From contig NZ_MVAR01000037.1 in assembly GCF_001999325.1 (NCBI RefSeq), positions 1 through 39,471 on the forward strand: 39,471 nucleotides of DNA. Direction: 5' to 3'. Below, in pieces: positions 17,016 through 32,271 of this stretch. Made by a program: the position numbers and the translations under genes. The notes under the pieces were generated by a model, which saw only the letters and a list, made by a program, of their open reading frames with translations, did not search any database and was not told the DNA's origin. The first letter of the stretch is position 1. Every line of letters begins with the position of its first letter. This DNA is from Thioalkalivibrio versutus (GTDB lineage Bacteria > Pseudomonadota > Gammaproteobacteria > Ectothiorhodospirales > Ectothiorhodospiraceae).

Positions 17016-17199
17016 GGGTATCTCGATTTGTTCGCGGTACTGGCAAGCCGGGTATGGCTCGTCGCTTGGAGACGCGCGCGGGCCGGAGGTTCCCGCAGCG
17101 GGTCACATCATACCATCGCGGTTTGTGGGGGAACCCCCGCGGTTGCGGTCAGTCCCTATTGTGCCAATATTACGTTTTGCTTAAATGAGGATAAAGGCG

Positions 17200-17754
17200 A
17201 TGAAGGGATCCAAGCAGTTTCTTGGCGGGCTTTTGGCGGCGGGTTTGCTGGCGGGCGGCGTTGCGGCTCCGGTCCTGGCCGAGGCGCCGCAGATCTGCGA
17301 GTGTCGCGATGGTCTGGAGATGGAGGGGACGCCGTGGATTCGCCTGATGCCGGGCGACATGACGGGGGGGTACTTCGTGCTCCGCAATAGCGGCGATCAG
17401 GATTATCGGATCGTTGCGGCGGAGGCGCCCATCGCGAAGGTGGTGGAGCTACACGAGCATGCCCATGTGGATGGCGTGATGCGCATGCGCCAGGTCGACG
17501 GCCTGGAACTCCCGGCTGGCGAGACCCTGGTGCTGGAGCCGGGCGGACTGCATCTGATGTTCATCGGCCTGCACGAGCCGCTGACGGCGGGGGACTGGAT
17601 CCCGGTGATCCTGGAGTTTGCCGACGGCGAAACCATGGCGATTCATGCCCGGGTGCAGCGGGGCGAGGGTGCCGGTGAGGGCCACTCCCGCGGGCACATG
17701 ATGGACGGAGATGCTCGCGGCATGGACCACGAGGCCGGGCACGACGGGCACTGA
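17200..17754 (+). CDS. PCu(A)C-type periplasmic copper chaperone
   Basis: A 184-residue exported protein of the PCu(A)C (DUF461) family, which carries Cu(I) in the periplasm and helps metallate the CuA site of cytochrome oxidases. After a signal peptide (about 1-27) the metal motif is present as His85 and His87 (ELHEH), Met94/Met96 (GVMRMR), His118 and Met120 (GGLHLM). The C-terminal tail is rich in His, Met and acidic residues (about 160-184), a likely extra copper-binding tail. I chose the ATG at 17200, with AAAGG just upstream, over the ATG at 17185, which lacks a ribosome site. It has no oxidase genes beside it; the neighbouring RND genes are on the other strand. Confidence 0.9.
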   Translation: MKGSKQFLGGLLAAGLLAGGVAAPVLAEAPQICECRDGLEMEGTPWIRLMPGDMTGGYFVLRNSGDQDYRIVAAEAPIAKVVELHEHAHVDGVMRMRQVDGLELPAGETLVLEPGGLHLMFIGLHEPLTAGDWIPVILEFADGETMAIHARVQRGEGAGEGHSRGHMMDGDARGMDHEAGHDGH

Positions 17755-17766
17755 AACGGACGCGGC

Positions 17767-17781
17767 GTACCCGTTGGGTAC
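17767..17781. terminator. Short hairpin between convergent genes
   Basis: GTACCC (17767-17772) and GGGTAC (17776-17781) pair around a 3-base loop between the convergent copper-chaperone and PpiC genes. There is no T-run, so its role as a terminator is weakly supported. Confidence 0.25.
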
Positions 17782-17795
17782 ACAGCGTTCCGGCC

Positions 17796-18653
17796 TTACT
17801 GGTTGGCGGGCCGGGTCGGGATCTCGACGTCGGCGTCTTCGCGCAGCGCCTCCAGATACTCCTGGATGGCGCGGCTTTCGAGGATCTCGATCAGCTCGGC
17901 GCGCACGTCTTCCAGTTCCGGGACCGGGGTATCGCGGGTTTCCTCCAGGCGGATGATGTGCCAGCCGAAGCGGCTCTCGACCGGTTCCGCGGTGGTCTCG
18001 CCCGGTTCCAGCGCCATGGCCGCCTCGCTGAACGCGGGGACCATCTGTTCCGGGGCGAACCAGCCGAGTTCGCCACCACGGGCCGCCGAGCCCGGATCGG
18101 TGGAATGGGCTTCGGCCAGTTCGGCAAAGTCCGCGTCGGCCTCCAGCTCTTCGAGCAGTTCGCGGGCGCGTTCCGCCTCTTCCACCAGGATGTGCCGAGC
18201 GCGATATTCGGTACCGCGGATCTGCTCGATCTGGCGGTCGTACTCCGCCTCGAGGTCCGCCTGCGTGATGTCGAGCTCCGCGGTGATGCGCTCCATCAGC
18301 AGCGAAGCCAGCAGGTTGGTCTCGACCATGCGCAGGATGCGTCGGGTCTCGGCATCGGTATCCAGCCCGCGGGCGACCGCCTCCTGACGCAGTAGCTCAA
18401 GGCTGATGACTTCCTCCAGCGTGCCGTCGCTCGCGGCCGGGCCGGGATCCTCGTCCATGCCGGCGTAGGCGAACAGGTCGGCGCGGGTGATCGCTTCACC
18501 GTTGACGATGGCGACGGTATCGGCGTCCCCGGTATCCGTGGTGACGTCGTCACCGGTGAACTCCGGCGTGGCTTGGTCCTGCGTGTCGCAGGCGGCGAGC
18601 AGGCCGGCGAGGGCCAGGGCGCTCAGGGCTGTGGTCAGGATGCGCCGCTTCAT
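17796..18653 (-). CDS. PpiC-type (parvulin) peptidyl-prolyl isomerase lipoprotein
   Basis: A 285-residue exported foldase of the SurA/PpiD/PrsA group. The signal peptide ends in a lipobox, LLAAC with Cys22 as the lipidation site, so it should be membrane-anchored in the periplasm. The SurA_N-like chaperone domain (about 45-145) precedes one parvulin domain (about 150-245), with RARHILVE at its start, GGELGWF in the middle and SRFGWHIIRLEE at its end. The frame is open 26 codons further upstream, but the ATG at 18653 begins the signal peptide. It shares one base with the stop of the YciI-like gene upstream (TGATG), so the pair is translationally coupled. Confidence 0.92.
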   Translation of the reverse strand: MKRRILTTALSALALAGLLAACDTQDQATPEFTGDDVTTDTGDADTVAIVNGEAITRADLFAYAGMDEDPGPAASDGTLEEVISLELLRQEAVARGLDTDAETRRILRMVETNLLASLLMERITAELDITQADLEAEYDRQIEQIRGTEYRARHILVEEAERARELLEELEADADFAELAEAHSTDPGSAARGGELGWFAPEQMVPAFSEAAMALEPGETTAEPVESRFGWHIIRLEETRDTPVPELEDVRAELIEILESRAIQEYLEALREDADVEIPTRPANQ

Positions 18654-18949
18654 CAAAACACCTGCTTGAACGGGCGCACGTCGACCGTGGTGTACACGCC
18701 GGCCGCCACGTAGGGGTCGGCGTCGGCCCATTCGCGTGCGGCCTCCAGCGAGGGGAACTCCGCGACGATCAGGCTGCCGGTGAAGCCGGCCGGGCCCGGG
18801 TCGTTACTGTCGATGGCGGGGCAGGGGCCGGCCAGGATCAGCCGGCCGTCGTCGCGCAGGGCCTGCAGCCGGGCGACGTGTTCCGGGCGCGCGGCCAGGC
18901 GCGCATCCAGCGAATCGGGGGCATCCTCGCCCTGGATCATGTACAGCAT
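18653..18949 (-). CDS. YciI-like protein
   Basis: A 98-residue cytoplasmic protein of the YciI/YCII family (ferredoxin-like fold, alpha-beta barrel dimers). Visible family features are the short N-terminal strand [11 protein letters not shown], the invariant-type His in [11 protein letters not shown], the [10 protein letters not shown] turn with acidic residues nearby, and the C-terminal [17 protein letters not shown]. Biochemical roles of most members are unknown; related proteins act as dehydrochlorinases or in stress responses. I placed the start at 18949, seven bases after GAGGAG; ATGs at 18955 and 18973 lie on or before that site. It is coupled to the PpiC gene downstream. Confidence 0.87.
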
Positions 18950-23997: not shown

Positions 23998-24807
23998 TCA
24001 GCACTGGGCCGTTTCGGTGGTTTCCGGGCAGTCCTGCTGCACCAGGCGGTCGTCGTCCAGCCATTCCATGATGCCGTCGGTCACGTTGTAGACGTTCTCG
24101 TAGCCAAGGCCGTCGGCCAAAGCGCGGGCGAGGGCGCCGGTGCGGTTGCCTACGCGGCAGATCAGCACGACTTCCTCGTCCGGCTTGACCAGGTTGGTGA
24201 ACTGCTCGCCAAAGGTCGGGTTGAGCTCGCCATTCTCGTCGAAGGCGGTAATGCGGTAGCTGCCCTCGATCACGCCGGTCTCCGCCCATTCGTCCGGACG
24301 GCGGATGTCGACGATGGTTGCGCCCTCGCGGATCTTCTCGGCCAGGCCTTCGTTGTCCAGGCCGCTAAAGGGCGCGCGTTCGACGTCGAGGATCTCGACC
24401 TCGAAGCGCAGGGTCGCGTTGGACGGGATGATGTTGCCGGCCCCGCGTTCGCCATAGCCGAGTTCCGGCGGGATGACGATCTCGCGCTTGCCGCCTTCGC
24501 GCATGCCCATCACGCCCTGTTCGAAGCCCGGGATCACCTGGCCCGCGCCCAGCGTGAGCGCAAATGGCGCGCCGGACTCGCGGCTGGAATCGAACACGCT
24601 CCCGTCCTCTTCCAGCGACCCGGTGTAATGCAGGATGGCCGTGTCATGCCGCACGATCCCGGGTCCTTCGCCGGCTTCGATTTCGTGGATCTCGATGGAT
24701 GCTGCGGGCTCCGCGCTGGCAATGCCGCCTGCGAGCAACGAGCCGATCAGCGCCACTGTAAATATAATAAAACCGGAATATGCGGAATTACAAAAAGTGA
24801 TCTTCAT
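23998..24807 (-). CDS. Exported FKBP-type peptidyl-prolyl isomerase fused to a rhodanese domain
   Basis: A 269-residue protein with a signal peptide (about 1-32). Residues 48-143 are an FKBP domain: YTGSLEEDGSVFDSSRE (61-77), the TLGAGQVIPGFEQG loop (85-98) and GYGERGAGNIIPSN (117-130). Residues about 150-255 are a rhodanese domain with EGATIVDIRRPDEW (161-174) and the active-site Cys217 in LICRVGNRTG. FKBP domains catalyse proline isomerisation in folding; rhodaneses carry sulfane sulfur on the cysteine. The fusion is unusual and suggests a periplasmic foldase or carrier tied to sulfur or copper handling; that is inference. It diverges from the sulfite dehydrogenase gene. The start was set at the ATG at 24807, 30 codons inside the open frame, where the signal peptide begins. 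Confidence 0.88.
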   Translation of the reverse strand: MKITFCNSAYSGFIIFTVALIGSLLAGGIASAEPAASIEIHEIEAGEGPGIVRHDTAILHYTGSLEEDGSVFDSSRESGAPFALTLGAGQVIPGFEQGVMGMREGGKREIVIPPELGYGERGAGNIIPSNATLRFEVEILDVERAPFSGLDNEGLAEKIREGATIVDIRRPDEWAETGVIEGSYRITAFDENGELNPTFGEQFTNLVKPDEEVVLICRVGNRTGALARALADGLGYENVYNVTDGIMEWLDDDRLVQQDCPETTETAQC

Positions 24808-24962
24808 TGTGTAGCTTCCGTTTATATTAAAAAGGGTTAATAAAAGCCTGTGATCAGCAAGTTGCGAGATCCAATGGGGCCCTATTCTACACCGCATATC
24901 GATGATCGAATACAGGCGTTATGTAGAAGTTTCTGGATCTTGTAAAAAATCCCCATTTTTTA

Positions 24963-24991
24963 TTGCAGGCTTTGAAGGCGTTTGCTACAAC
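24963..24991 (+). promoter_or_regulatory. Candidate sigma-70 promoter of the sulfite dehydrogenase genes
   Basis: TTGCAG (24963-24968), a 17-base spacer and TACAAC (24986-24991) form a plausible promoter 74 bases before the ATG at 25065. The match is moderate. The whole divergent gap (24808-25064) is AT-rich against its GC-rich surroundings. Confidence 0.35.
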
Positions 24992-25064
24992 TCCAAGTGG
25001 CTGTCCCAGGGAGAGAGGGGCAGTACATGAGATTTTGTTCCGAGAACAAGCCGGAGGCAGGCAA

Positions 25065-26396
25065 ATGACTGACCACAAGAACGATGGTTCCGAGATGGAC
25101 CGCAAGTCCGAAGAAGAAACCCGGGAGACCGAACAGCTGACCGAGACGGGCGCCGCCCGTCGCGGTTTCCTGGGTCGCCTGGGCAAGGGCGGTGCCGCCC
25201 TGGCCGTGATGGGTCTGGGCGCGGAAACCGCCATGCAGACCATGTTCCAGCGCAGCACCCTGTCCAGTGCCGTGGCCGCCGGCATCGAGGGCTTCCACGT
25301 GGATGGCAAGGTGGACGGCTTCATCTGGCTGAATGACCGCCCGATCAACGGTGAACTGCCGCCGCACCTGCTGCACGACGAAGTGACCCCGTTCCCCAAT
25401 ATGTTCATCCGCAACAACGGCGTTCCTCCGGAGAAGGCCGGGATCGACGCATCTGCATGGACCCTGACGGTCCACGGCGAAGCGGCGAACGAGGAGAAGT
25501 CCTACACCATCGCGGACCTCAAGGAGAAGTTCGAGCACCACACCCTGCAGATCTGGATCGAGTGTGGTGGCAACGGGCGTGCCGCGTTCGAGCCGTCCCC
25601 GCGCGGTAACCAGTGGGATCTCGGTGCGGTCGGCTGCCCGACCTGGACGGGTGTGCGTCTGCGCGACGTGCTGGAAGACGTCGGTTACGACGCCGACAAA
25701 GCCGAGTACATTGGCTTCAAGGCGGGTGACGCGCACCTGAGCGGCCGTGATGATCTGGATGCGCTGTCGCGTGGCTGCCCCATGCGCAAGGCCGTGGAAG
25801 ACGAGACCCTCATTGTCTGGGCGATGAATGGTGAAGACATCCCGGAACAGCACGGCTATCCGCTGCGCCTGATCACCCCGGGCTTCCCGGGTTCCGCCAG
25901 CGGCAAGTGGCTGACCGAGATCCTCGTCCGTGATCGCGAGCATGACGGTCAGGGCATGACCGGCCACAGCTATCGCGTACCGCGTCATCCGGTGGAGCCG
26001 GGTGCCGACGTCCCGAACGAGGACATGGTCGTCCTCGAGGAAATGCCGGTGAAGTCCCTGATCACCTATCCGCAGACCGGTGCCGAGACCTCCGTTGGCA
26101 GTACGCTGAAGGTTGCGGGCAAGGCCTGGGATGGTCACGGCGATGTCGAGGAGCTTCATGTCTCGACCGACTTCGGGGTGACCTGGCAGAAGGCCGACCT
26201 GAAGCGTCCGGTGAACAAGTTCGCCTGGCAGACCTGGGAAGCGGATATCGAGTTCTCCGAACCCGGTTTCCATCAGGTGTGGGCCGTGGCCACCAACAGC
26301 AAGGGCGATCGTCAGCCGATGGTGCTGCCGGGCTGGAACCCGCGGGGCTACGGCAACAACAAGGCCCACCACATCGATGTCCGCGTCAAAGCGTAA
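25065..26396 (+). CDS. Molybdenum sulfite dehydrogenase catalytic subunit (SorA/SoxC type)
   Basis: This oxidises sulfite to sulfate in the periplasm, passing electrons to a cytochrome c. The protein has 443 residues. A twin-arginine signal (ARRGFLGRLG, Arg32-Arg33) shows folded export with its molybdopterin cofactor. The cofactor domain carries the ligand Cys167 in WIECGGNGRAAF. The C-terminal Mo-co dimerisation domain follows from about 310 (HVSTDFGVTWQKADL, PNARG-like loop near the end). The WIECGGNGR motif is nearer to SoxC and SorA than to animal sulfite oxidase. The next gene encodes a monohaem cytochrome c, which argues for SorAB, but no other sox genes are in the window. The start at 25065 has GGAG upstream; an earlier in-frame start at 24963 would put residues before the signal. 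Confidence 0.9.
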   Translation: MTDHKNDGSEMDRKSEEETRETEQLTETGAARRGFLGRLGKGGAALAVMGLGAETAMQTMFQRSTLSSAVAAGIEGFHVDGKVDGFIWLNDRPINGELPPHLLHDEVTPFPNMFIRNNGVPPEKAGIDASAWTLTVHGEAANEEKSYTIADLKEKFEHHTLQIWIECGGNGRAAFEPSPRGNQWDLGAVGCPTWTGVRLRDVLEDVGYDADKAEYIGFKAGDAHLSGRDDLDALSRGCPMRKAVEDETLIVWAMNGEDIPEQHGYPLRLITPGFPGSASGKWLTEILVRDREHDGQGMTGHSYRVPRHPVEPGADVPNEDMVVLEEMPVKSLITYPQTGAETSVGSTLKVAGKAWDGHGDVEELHVSTDFGVTWQKADLKRPVNKFAWQTWEADIEFSEPGFHQVWAVATNSKGDRQPMVLPGWNPRGYGNNKAHHIDVRVKA

Positions 26397-26405
26397 GGAG
26401 CACCA

Positions 26406-26732
26406 ATGAAGCCGAAGATGGTCCTGTTGTTGCCGGCCATCCTCGGCCTCCTCTGGGGGGCGCCTGCATTGTCGGGCGACCACGTCGAGGCTGCCGAGGA
26501 GTACAAGACCGACTCGGAAACCGGGCTGATCAAGGCCCCGGGATTCGATACGGTCAAGAACAATTGCACGGTATGTCACTCGGCCCGGTTGTTCACCAGC
26601 CGTGGGTACACGCGCAAGATCTGGCTGGAACAGATCCGCTGGATGCAGGACACCCAGGGGCTCTGGGAGTTCTCCCCCGAAGTGGAGGAGGAGATCCTGG
26701 ATTACCTGGAAACCTTCTACCCACCGCGTTGA
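26406..26732 (+). CDS. Small monohaem cytochrome c, sulfite dehydrogenase electron acceptor (SorB-like)
   Basis: A 108-residue exported protein: signal peptide about 1-23, then one haem-binding motif CTVCH (residues 54-58). Met80 (IRWMQ) is the likely second axial ligand. The size and its place, nine bases after the catalytic gene, fit the SorB subunit of bacterial sulfite dehydrogenases, which takes electrons from the molybdenum centre and passes them on to the respiratory chain. A strong hairpin terminator follows, so the two genes form a complete transcription unit. Confidence 0.88.
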   Translation: MKPKMVLLLPAILGLLWGAPALSGDHVEAAEEYKTDSETGLIKAPGFDTVKNNCTVCHSARLFTSRGYTRKIWLEQIRWMQDTQGLWEFSPEVEEEILDYLETFYPPR

Positions 26733-30970: not shown

Positions 30971-31417
30971 TTAGGGCCGGCTGTAGGTATAGCCCTGGTG
31001 TTGCAGCCAGGAGATGCGCGCCACGCCGCTCGGGATTACGTCGTCTTCGGAGGCGTCGAAGAGTTCTTCGAGGGCGATATTGCGTCCGCGCAGGGTGTTC
31101 GCACAGACCTGGAACTCCACGTTCTGCATCTTTAGGTTCTCGATGCGGCCGCGCAGGTTCTCGTTGGTGTTGGCAGTTTGCAGCAGCCCGAGGCCGTCCC
31201 CGTGCATCACCACCTTGATCTCCATGTTGTCGGCGCCCACGGCGTTGATATGGTTCTGGATGTTGCCCATCGCGGCCATGTAGCGCCGCTCGTCGTCGTA
31301 GTTCACGTGGTAGATCACTTTGTGCGTGCCATAGTCGAAGTCGCTCGCGGCCGCCAGGCCGGGGATGCCGAGCACCATGGCGAGCAGGGCGGGAAGGAGC
31401 AGTTTCATTGCGTTCAT
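30971..31417 (-). CDS. Exported DsrE-family protein, paralogue 1
   Basis: A 148-residue protein of the DsrE/COG1416 family with a signal peptide (about 1-25). DsrE-like proteins bind or pass sulfur through a conserved cysteine; most characterised ones are cytoplasmic, so the signal peptide points to a periplasmic variant. The single cysteine of the mature part is Cys105 in EFQVCANTLRGRNI. Other family features are KVIYHVNYDDER (33-44), NIQNHINAVGAD (52-63), VVMHGDGLGLLQ and IPSGVARISWLQHQGYTY near the end. It is the downstream copy of a tandem pair with the gene at 31716. The start at 31417 follows AGGAGG; the frame is open further upstream. Confidence 0.88.
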   Translation of the reverse strand: MNAMKLLLPALLAMVLGIPGLAAASDFDYGTHKVIYHVNYDDERRYMAAMGNIQNHINAVGADNMEIKVVMHGDGLGLLQTANTNENLRGRIENLKMQNVEFQVCANTLRGRNIALEELFDASEDDVIPSGVARISWLQHQGYTYSRP

Positions 31418-31533
31418 TGCACAGGTTCCTCCTGAAACAACAACGAACCCGGGCGGGTTTGAGGTGCGCCACGGGGCCTTGCGCCGGGGTTGGCGCGCTG
31501 CGATCGGGGACTTCGCGGTGAAGGCGATCGACA

Positions 31534-31547
31534 GGTATGAGTAAGAC
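31534..31547 (-). promoter_or_regulatory. Upstream motif of DsrE gene 1
   Basis: On the minus strand this reads GTCTTACTCATACC and lies about 120-130 bases before the start of the gene at 30971. It matches the motif at 32272-32286 (GTCTTACCCATAACC), which lies at nearly the same distance upstream of the paralogue. The CATA(A)C part could be a -10 element; no matching -35 is seen. Confidence 0.4.
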
Positions 31548-31641
31548 GCATCAGCCATGCGCCTATTCCCGTCTGCAGCGCCACAAAAAGGGTCATGTGC
31601 CGTGTAGGGCGGGTTTACGAGAGGAGTCTAGTTGCACAAAG

Positions 31642-31715: not shown

Positions 31716-32162
31716 TTACGGACGCACGTAGGTGTAGCCCTGCTGCTGCAGGTGCGACAGGTGGGCCACACCGCTCGGGATGATGTCGTCCTCGGACGCG
31801 TCGTAGAGATCGTTGGCGACATCGATGTTCCGGCCAACGACGGTGTTGTTGCACACCTGGAAGTCCACGTCCTGCATCTTCAGCTGATCGACGAAGGCCT
31901 TCAGGTCCTCGTTCGACTTGGCGTGCTGCAGCAGGCTGAGCCCGTTGCCGTGCATCACGACCTTGATGCTCATGCGGTCGGCGCCCACGGCGTTGATGTG
32001 GTTCTGGATGTTGCGCATCGCGCCGATCTGCCGCTGTTCGTTGTCGTGGTTCACGTGATAGACGACTTTCTGCTCGGAATAGTAGCTATCCGCGAGGGCG
32101 GTACCCGGCAGGGCGAATACGGCGGCGGCCATGGCCAGCGGAAGGATGAAGCGTTTGTTCAT
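31716..32162 (-). CDS. Exported DsrE-family protein, paralogue 2
   Basis: The upstream member of the tandem pair, again exactly 148 residues, with a signal peptide (about 1-25, MNKRFILPLAMAAAVFALPG). It shares with paralogue 1 the stretches YHVN, NIQNHINAVGAD, KVVMHG and GLxLLQ, the single mature-part cysteine (Cys104 in FQVCNNTVVGRNI), DASEDD, IPSGVA and QGYTYxRP. The rest differs, so the duplication is not recent. A role in sulfur handling in the periplasm is inferred from the family and from the sulfite dehydrogenase and rhodanese genes nearby. The start at 32162 has GGAG upstream, and the gene has its own terminator. Confidence 0.88.
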   Translation of the reverse strand: MNKRFILPLAMAAAVFALPGTALADSYYSEQKVVYHVNHDNEQRQIGAMRNIQNHINAVGADRMSIKVVMHGNGLSLLQHAKSNEDLKAFVDQLKMQDVDFQVCNNTVVGRNIDVANDLYDASEDDIIPSGVAHLSHLQQQGYTYVRP

Positions 32163-32271
32163 GATCGGGCTCCTGCGTTTGTTCCCGTGTTTTGTTTTCG
32201 ATACGCCCGGGGCGTATGCCGCGTTGCAATCAGAGACCGGATCCAGGGCGGCGTCCATGCCTCTGGTGTCC

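Follow-up and report, generated by a model that had tools for sequence, protein, structure and literature searches.

A putatively exported FKBP-rhodanese fusion with a C-terminal cysteine pair, divergent from SorA-like genes in Thioalkalivibrio versutus

Why an FKBP domain should be joined to a rhodanese domain in one putatively exported protein, and whether that protein takes part in the sulfur chemistry suggested by the genes beside it, is the question raised by a gene of Thioalkalivibrio versutus lying in the window, the whole stretch of 39,471 nucleotides of contig NZ_MVAR01000037.1 analyzed here, from a genome of 2.83 Mb in 58 contigs (G000; other genomes and loci are likewise cited by G and L numbers). 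Periplasmic transport and resolution of sulfane sulfur in sulfur oxidizers are poorly known, and for Tv. thiocyanoxidans the available part of one report describes the enzyme converting zero-valent sulfur to sulfite as presently unknown (PMC5328954). A conserved protein with three cysteines is a direct test case for a rhodanese that itself carries the acceptor dithiol, and the fusion also allows asking why a foldase is joined to a rhodanese. In the reading favored here, to which a probability of about 0.5 is given, the protein is a periplasmic foldase-sulfurtransferase with a C-terminal dithiol that takes up or resolves persulfide. Within this reading we infer both activities, the redox role of the tail, the sulfur donor, the client or substrate, and the partner.

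The fusion gene occupies positions 23998–24807 on the minus strand and encodes 269 aa plus a stop from an ATG start; it is convergent with trpS-scpA-scpB as assigned by family profiles. The N-terminus (MKITF...GGIASA, then E) reads by eye as a putative Sec signal peptide of residues 1–32, cut after ASA (24712–24807, minus strand), and on this basis the protein is putatively exported. A hydrophobic N-terminus is seen by eye in most of the 41 relatives, and the open frame of one fusion (L094, in G011) shows no signal peptide. The FKBP_C domain spans residues 53–140 (24388–24651, minus strand), covers profile positions 7–94 of 94 with 109.2 bits against a Pfam gathering score of 21.1 (E 1.3e-31), and is placed identically by the genome search. 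The Rhodanese domain spans residues 155–251 (24055–24345, minus strand) and covers profile positions 5–101 of 102 with 55.5 bits against a gathering score of 22.2 (E 8.4e-15). The preliminary description of a signal-peptide protein with complete FKBP and rhodanese domains thus holds, with Pfam matches near full length and the signal peptide read by eye, and its active-site Cys217 is the cysteine of the rhodanese loop C217-R-V-G-N-R222 (24142–24159, minus strand), present in 41 of 41 relatives.

Among solved structures the whole protein is matched best by 3jxv, an FKBP. For the rhodanese part the best solved relative is 8w14, followed by 1qxn, a weak match (E 6.4e-5) entitled 'sulfide dehydrogenase' which we take to be Sud of Wolinella, a periplasmic transferase of polysulfide sulfur. 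AlphaFold2 gives a mediocre model (mean pLDDT 66.5, pTM 0.54), and because most of the tail falls below 50 it is silent on whether the tail reaches Cys217. The best 50 of 935 Foldseek matches of the model are either FKBP or Mip proteins or complexes that contain such a protein; since they name FKBP/Mip alone, the rhodanese fold is without structural confirmation, and nothing is gained from these 50 for the rhodanese part, the tail or the domain arrangement.

Both presumptive active sites are conserved in an alignment of 41 relatives of the fusion, 39 from the order plus G065 and G080. FKBP positions matched by eye to Tyr26, Phe36, Asp37, Ile56, Tyr82, Ile91 and Phe99 are identical in all 41, the FKBP12 numbering and the correspondence of pocket positions being our assumption. 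Variation is seen at the positions matched to Arg42, Phe46, Val55 and Trp59; at the Trp59 equivalent 28 sequences have W and 13 have F, and the Arg42 equivalent is R in 24. The rhodanese residues Asp167, Cys217 and Arg222 show no variation across the 41, and the catalytic loop cysteine is also found, by eye, in six distant fusions. Because the canonical FKBP pocket and the rhodanese Cys and Arg are conserved in an exported-type protein, the term periplasmic foldase-sulfurtransferase fits.

Exported FKBP prolyl isomerases of the FkpA/Mip type are presumably the nearest kind to the FKBP part. These and the small Burkholderia FKBPs 2ke0 and 8p3c have a complete FKBP_C domain and the canonical pocket in common with the fusion, which nevertheless lacks the N-terminal part of FkpA/Mip and has a rhodanese joined instead; NCBIfam PRK10902, which we take to be FkpA, gives the window protein 78.7 of 215 bits. 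The single-domain rhodaneses 8w14 and 1qxn share its sequence family, Cys loop and Arg, whereas the N-terminal FKBP and the C-terminal CX8C pair are features of the fusion. In the Sud-Psr system, as we assume, polysulfide reductase genes adjoin Sud; at the present locus no polysulfide reductase stands beside the fusion, the adjoining enzyme being of the sulfite-oxidase type. Sud is named a periplasmic sulfurtransferase in an accessible portion of the literature (PMC3397948). Wheat TaPar32 and Arabidopsis AtPin3 combine a prolyl isomerase with a C-terminal rhodanese-like domain, as excerpted from one source (PMC9797600), but these are plant proteins and their isomerase is a parvulin, the fold of which is unrelated to FKBP. 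No description of an FKBP-rhodanese fusion or of its tail was found in the open-licence literature, and 'fkbp' is absent from the main text of the Thioalkalivibrio papers examined. The fusion protein appears to be a new combination of known domain kinds, for which the plant parvulins are a precedent of prolyl isomerase plus rhodanese.

The window protein has cysteines at three positions past the signal peptide, 217, 260 and 269, and the last two, of which Cys269 is the final residue, form a C-terminal CX8C motif (24001–24030, minus strand). From residue 36 onward exactly three cysteines occur in 29 of the 41 aligned relatives and exactly one, the catalytic one, in the other 12, so that Cys260 and Cys269 are gained or lost jointly, all or none. 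A CX8C ending is present in 30 of the 49 fusions read (the 41 aligned, G018, G028 and six distant ones); its lack in 19 of 49 indicates that the tail is not essential to the fusion. All 12 fusions read from the sister clade within the order are without the pair, and the distant fusion L210 ends in CxxC instead of CX8C.

In the proposed mechanism the FKBP domain would act as a prolyl isomerase and the rhodanese domain would load Cys217 with sulfane sulfur, the source being polysulfide, thiosulfate or the persulfide of a thiol. Where all three cysteines are present, Cys260 and Cys269 would be a built-in acceptor or resolving dithiol, either receiving the persulfide or reducing it and closing to a disulfide, which an external reductant would reopen, whereas a fusion with one cysteine would depend on an acceptor from outside. 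The most economical reading of the sequence would be a rhodanese that forms a persulfide, carries a dithiol at its own C-terminus and is tethered to the FKBP. The tail may be likened, by analogy and not by homology, to the arm of DsrC. According to the available sections of one article, DsrC/TusE have two conserved cysteines on a C-terminal tail, DsrC is treated as cytoplasmic, sulfur is bound on the penultimate Cys of its arm, and product release is proposed to occur via disulfide closure (PMC3397948). The two belong to different families, the arm of DsrC having Cys100 and a penultimate Cys111 whereas the fusion has CX8C with the Cys last; the DsrC family is absent among the Pfam and NCBIfam matches of the window protein, which has no penultimate-Cys arm. 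As a stand-in for the Dsr pathway the tail was rejected, since it occurs with DsrA above the cut-off (G007, G010, G018, G031, G034, G036, G038 and G040) and also with none above it (the window's genome and others).

The fusion is widespread within the order and seldom found beyond it. Full-length copies are found in 41 of 47 order genomes; nothing matches at 1e-30 in G019, G035, G037 and G039, the fusion of G030 is cut by a contig end, and G006 has the rhodanese alone. The gene is found at 71–94% identity on ten named Thioalkalivibrio contigs. A further contig (L045, PWSR01000115.1), filed under a Clostridia MAG, has part of the fusion at 84% identity; it probably belongs to Thioalkalivibrio and was misbinned. 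Of 369 genomes drawn from the class, nine carry the fusion, namely three of the four own-family genomes among those listed and six others (6/365; G065, G080, G404, G148, G264 and G363), and a draw of 398 genomes of the phylum adds two carriers outside the class (G655 and G673); in both draws the best 6–7 candidates per genome were scored at a cut-off of 1e-30, so that diverged fusions may escape. A rhodanese tree of 108 columns with many weak forks gives three label changes for the fusion state and is also compatible with one origin. Three fusions from genus g107 (L207–L209) have a lipobox-like start and by eye look like lipoproteins. The surroundings of the fusion include a gene for a nitrous-oxide-reductase propeller domain at L208 and ccmF/ccmE at L209. 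The role in cytochrome maturation offered by the preliminary description finds too little to stand on, namely this one convergent ccmF/ccmE pair at one distant carrier.

The window's genome has four FKBP matches, which by eye are the fusion, trigger factor, a SlyD-like and a SlpA-like protein; the other three have no signal peptide by eye, and the fusion is the sole exported FKBP found there. Its FKBP domain is therefore probably a general periplasmic foldase and client-holding domain. At 17185–18731 of the window a copper chaperone PCu(A)C gene adjoins the gene of a PPIC parvulin whose start is lipobox-like, so the exported prolyl isomerases are not limited to FKBP. Among the matches listed, which reach down to ∼46 bits and from which trigger-factor-length frames near 70 bits are excluded, another FKBP class scoring 70–91 bits occurs in 26 of 31 other order genomes but in no genome of the window's clade, which has 16, and is also missing in G006, G013, G023, G030 and G036; the four genomes without a fusion match (G019, G035, G037 and G039) all have it. 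That the fusion is the sole exported FKBP found in the window's genome lends some weight to the alternative that the protein is mainly a housekeeping periplasmic FKBP foldase, its rhodanese being a passive or minor add-on (for example one that scavenges thiols or cyanide) and its sulfur setting a side effect of life in sulfur oxidizers. The same alternative accords with the retention of the fusion amid varied sulfur gene sets, including that of G032, which has a CX8C-tailed fusion and neither SoxB nor DsrA, and with neighbors that outside the window's clade are by eye not recognizably sulfur genes. However, an add-on of no consequence sits poorly with a rhodanese Cys and Arg that are invariant in 41 of 41 and with stand-alone rhodanese paralogs that keep the tail without any FKBP, and the alternative is considered somewhat unlikely.

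On the other side, across a divergent intergenic gap of 257 nt (24808–25064, GC 0.45), lies a gene for a SorA-like molybdoenzyme of 443 aa (25065–26396, plus strand), assigned to the sulfite-oxidase family by profile matches and possibly linked in function to the fusion, followed by one for a SorB-like small protein of 108 aa with a CxxCH heme motif (26406–26732, plus strand; NCBIfam SorB 26.3 bits, cut-off 93). The larger protein falls below all the NCBIfam cut-offs concerned (SorA 204.9 of 600 bits, SorT 198 of 570, SoxC 156 of 420); its best solved relative is 2blf (E 4.1e-43), and the Cys of its ECGGNGR is aligned to the Mo-ligand Cys of QCSGNSR. The divergence from SorAB-like genes over an AT-rich gap is thereby confirmed, and calling these sulfite dehydrogenase genes agrees with the family and the Mo-ligand Cys but goes beyond the SorA, SorT, SoxC and SorB scores; because both proteins are below these cut-offs, 'SorAB-like' is right and 'sorAB' is not established. 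A sorA gene, TK90_0686, is already known in strain K90mix from the portion of the record available, and identity with the present locus is not implied (PMC3368412); a low-similarity sulfite:cytochrome c oxidoreductase is described for Tv. thiocyanoxidans in the part of the paper at hand (PMC5328954).

For the linkage survey 96 relatives were searched with the SorA-like protein and the places found were compared with those of the fusion. The two genes are divergent neighbors in 13 genomes, with gaps of 207–601 nt to the aligned starts, all inside one clade of 16 fusions (support 100/99); of the remaining members G007 and G012 have no SorA-like match, and G018, a fragmented assembly, has the genes on different contigs. 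Eight other order genomes hold them apart, ∼17 kb away in G009, on one contig in G033, G034 and G038, and on different contigs in G017, G031, G036 and G040, while G030 has a SorA-like gene and the cut-off fusion. No SorA-like match better than 1e-100 is found in 19 of the 41 full-length order carriers, three of which (G008, G014 and G015) have more distant sulfite-oxidase-family matches. Outside the window's clade the fusion adjoins, by eye, other genes such as those for formyltetrahydrofolate deformylase or glycerophosphodiesterase. The adjacency is thus the habit of one clade and not general. Although a foldase-sulfurtransferase fits the conserved residues, the proposal that it serves sulfur oxidation is not supported as a general tie to sulfite oxidation, given those 19 carriers. 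It had also been proposed that a common fusion with no sulfur-gene linkage would refute a sulfur role; the fusion is not common overall but mostly lacks that linkage.

The 13 neighbors form two deep SorA-like lineages, one of six (the window, G002, G004, G010, G021 and G026) and one of seven (G001, G005, G020, G022, G024, G025 and G029), and at least three label changes are needed on a quick tree. G022 and G026 have sister fusions (99/95) that nevertheless face different lineages. The 601-nt gap of G022 (L106) is mosaic: its fusion side matches all six lineage-one gaps above shuffles (for example 120/157 identical with the window) and no lineage-two gap, whereas its sorA side matches lineage two (for example 131/158 identical with G029) and not lineage one. 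This mosaic indicates that recombination, with its breakpoint near the gap, replaced the SorA-like segment and left the fusion in place. No regulatory block common to both SorA-like types is seen in the gaps. An adjacency that outlived an enzyme swap, in addition to its presence in 13 genomes, could suggest that the fusion is a dedicated helper of the SorA-like enzyme, in folding, cytochrome or cofactor assembly, or delivery of a sulfur substrate; some CX8C paralogs likewise stand beside Mo-enzyme or Moco genes (ArrA/ArxA-like at L221, L222 and L225, MobA at L221, MoeA at L218). However, recombination beside a stable flank explains the swap without selection for the pair, though such selection is still compatible with it, and the confinement to one clade, the 19 carriers with no close SorA-like gene and the eight genomes with both genes apart are not what a dedicated helper would lead one to expect. 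Moreover, a Tat-like RRGFLG motif, read by eye, indicates that the SorA-like enzyme probably folds before export. Such a dedicated role is distinctly unlikely.

A tie to thiosulfate oxidation through SoxB was likewise set aside: SoxB is above the cut-off in 148 of 369 class genomes, and its enrichment among carriers (6/9 versus 142/360 of the others) is not significant (p = 0.10). Outside the order SoxB is above the cut-off in five of eight carriers (G065, G080, G404, G655 and G673) and in none of the three g107 carriers.

The tail is also found without the FKBP. Among 20 stand-alone rhodaneses read, a CX8C ending on the last residue occurs in all eight from the sister clade of the same order (L218–L225; nine were found and G008 was left out) and in none of the 12 from other orders. 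The eight have, by eye, a hydrophobic segment ahead of the rhodanese domain, and several of those from other orders have a lipobox-like start. That a stand-alone paralog offsets tail loss in the fusion one for one was rejected, since G014 (99% complete) has neither. Near the paralogs, matches to the ArrA model of 1120–1125 bits (cut-off 1600) at L221, L222 and L225 are read as ArxA-like. L221 also has an ArrB-model match below the cut-off (334/450), MobA above the cut-off, and, between the rhodanese and the iron-sulfur gene, a 350-aa protein with no family match; a MoeA-type gene above the cut-off lies at L218, ArsA at L224 and ArsB at L225. The CX8C pair might accordingly bind a metal or metalloid, or form a permanent structural disulfide, in a protein that copes with arsenite, thioarsenate, copper or mercury and relays no sulfur. 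The four loci with ArxA-like, ArsA or ArsB genes (L221, L222, L224 and L225) and the association of paralog and ArxA-like gene over 47 genomes (6/3/2/36, p = 2e-4) point that way, but the association vanishes within the 14-genome sister clade (p = 0.58), so the co-occurrence does not go beyond clade membership, and the window's genome has no ArxA-like match at 1e-200; this explanation is improbable. In Tv. jannaschii an operon near arx and ars is reported to contain a rhodanese-related gene that is up-regulated at 5 mM arsenite, and equivalence of that gene to the CX8C paralog is not implied (PMC6620896).

A bolder form of the foldase-sulfurtransferase reading would make the rhodanese and its tail a self-contained periplasmic sulfur relay, in which Cys217 loads and the CX8C arm takes and resolves the sulfur, the module being either fused to the sole exported FKBP of the cell or membrane-anchored alone, in each case seen beside genes for periplasmic molybdoenzymes (SorA-like or ArxA-like) that it possibly supplies or protects. 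This extension is unlikely as it stands. About 6 kb from the fusion, at 30974–31558 and 31719–32258 (both minus strand), the window encodes a tandem pair of DsrE/F-like (PF02635) proteins that have one Cys in common (VCANT/VCNNT) and show signal-peptide-like stretches; they are possible periplasmic sulfur-relay partners of the fusion.
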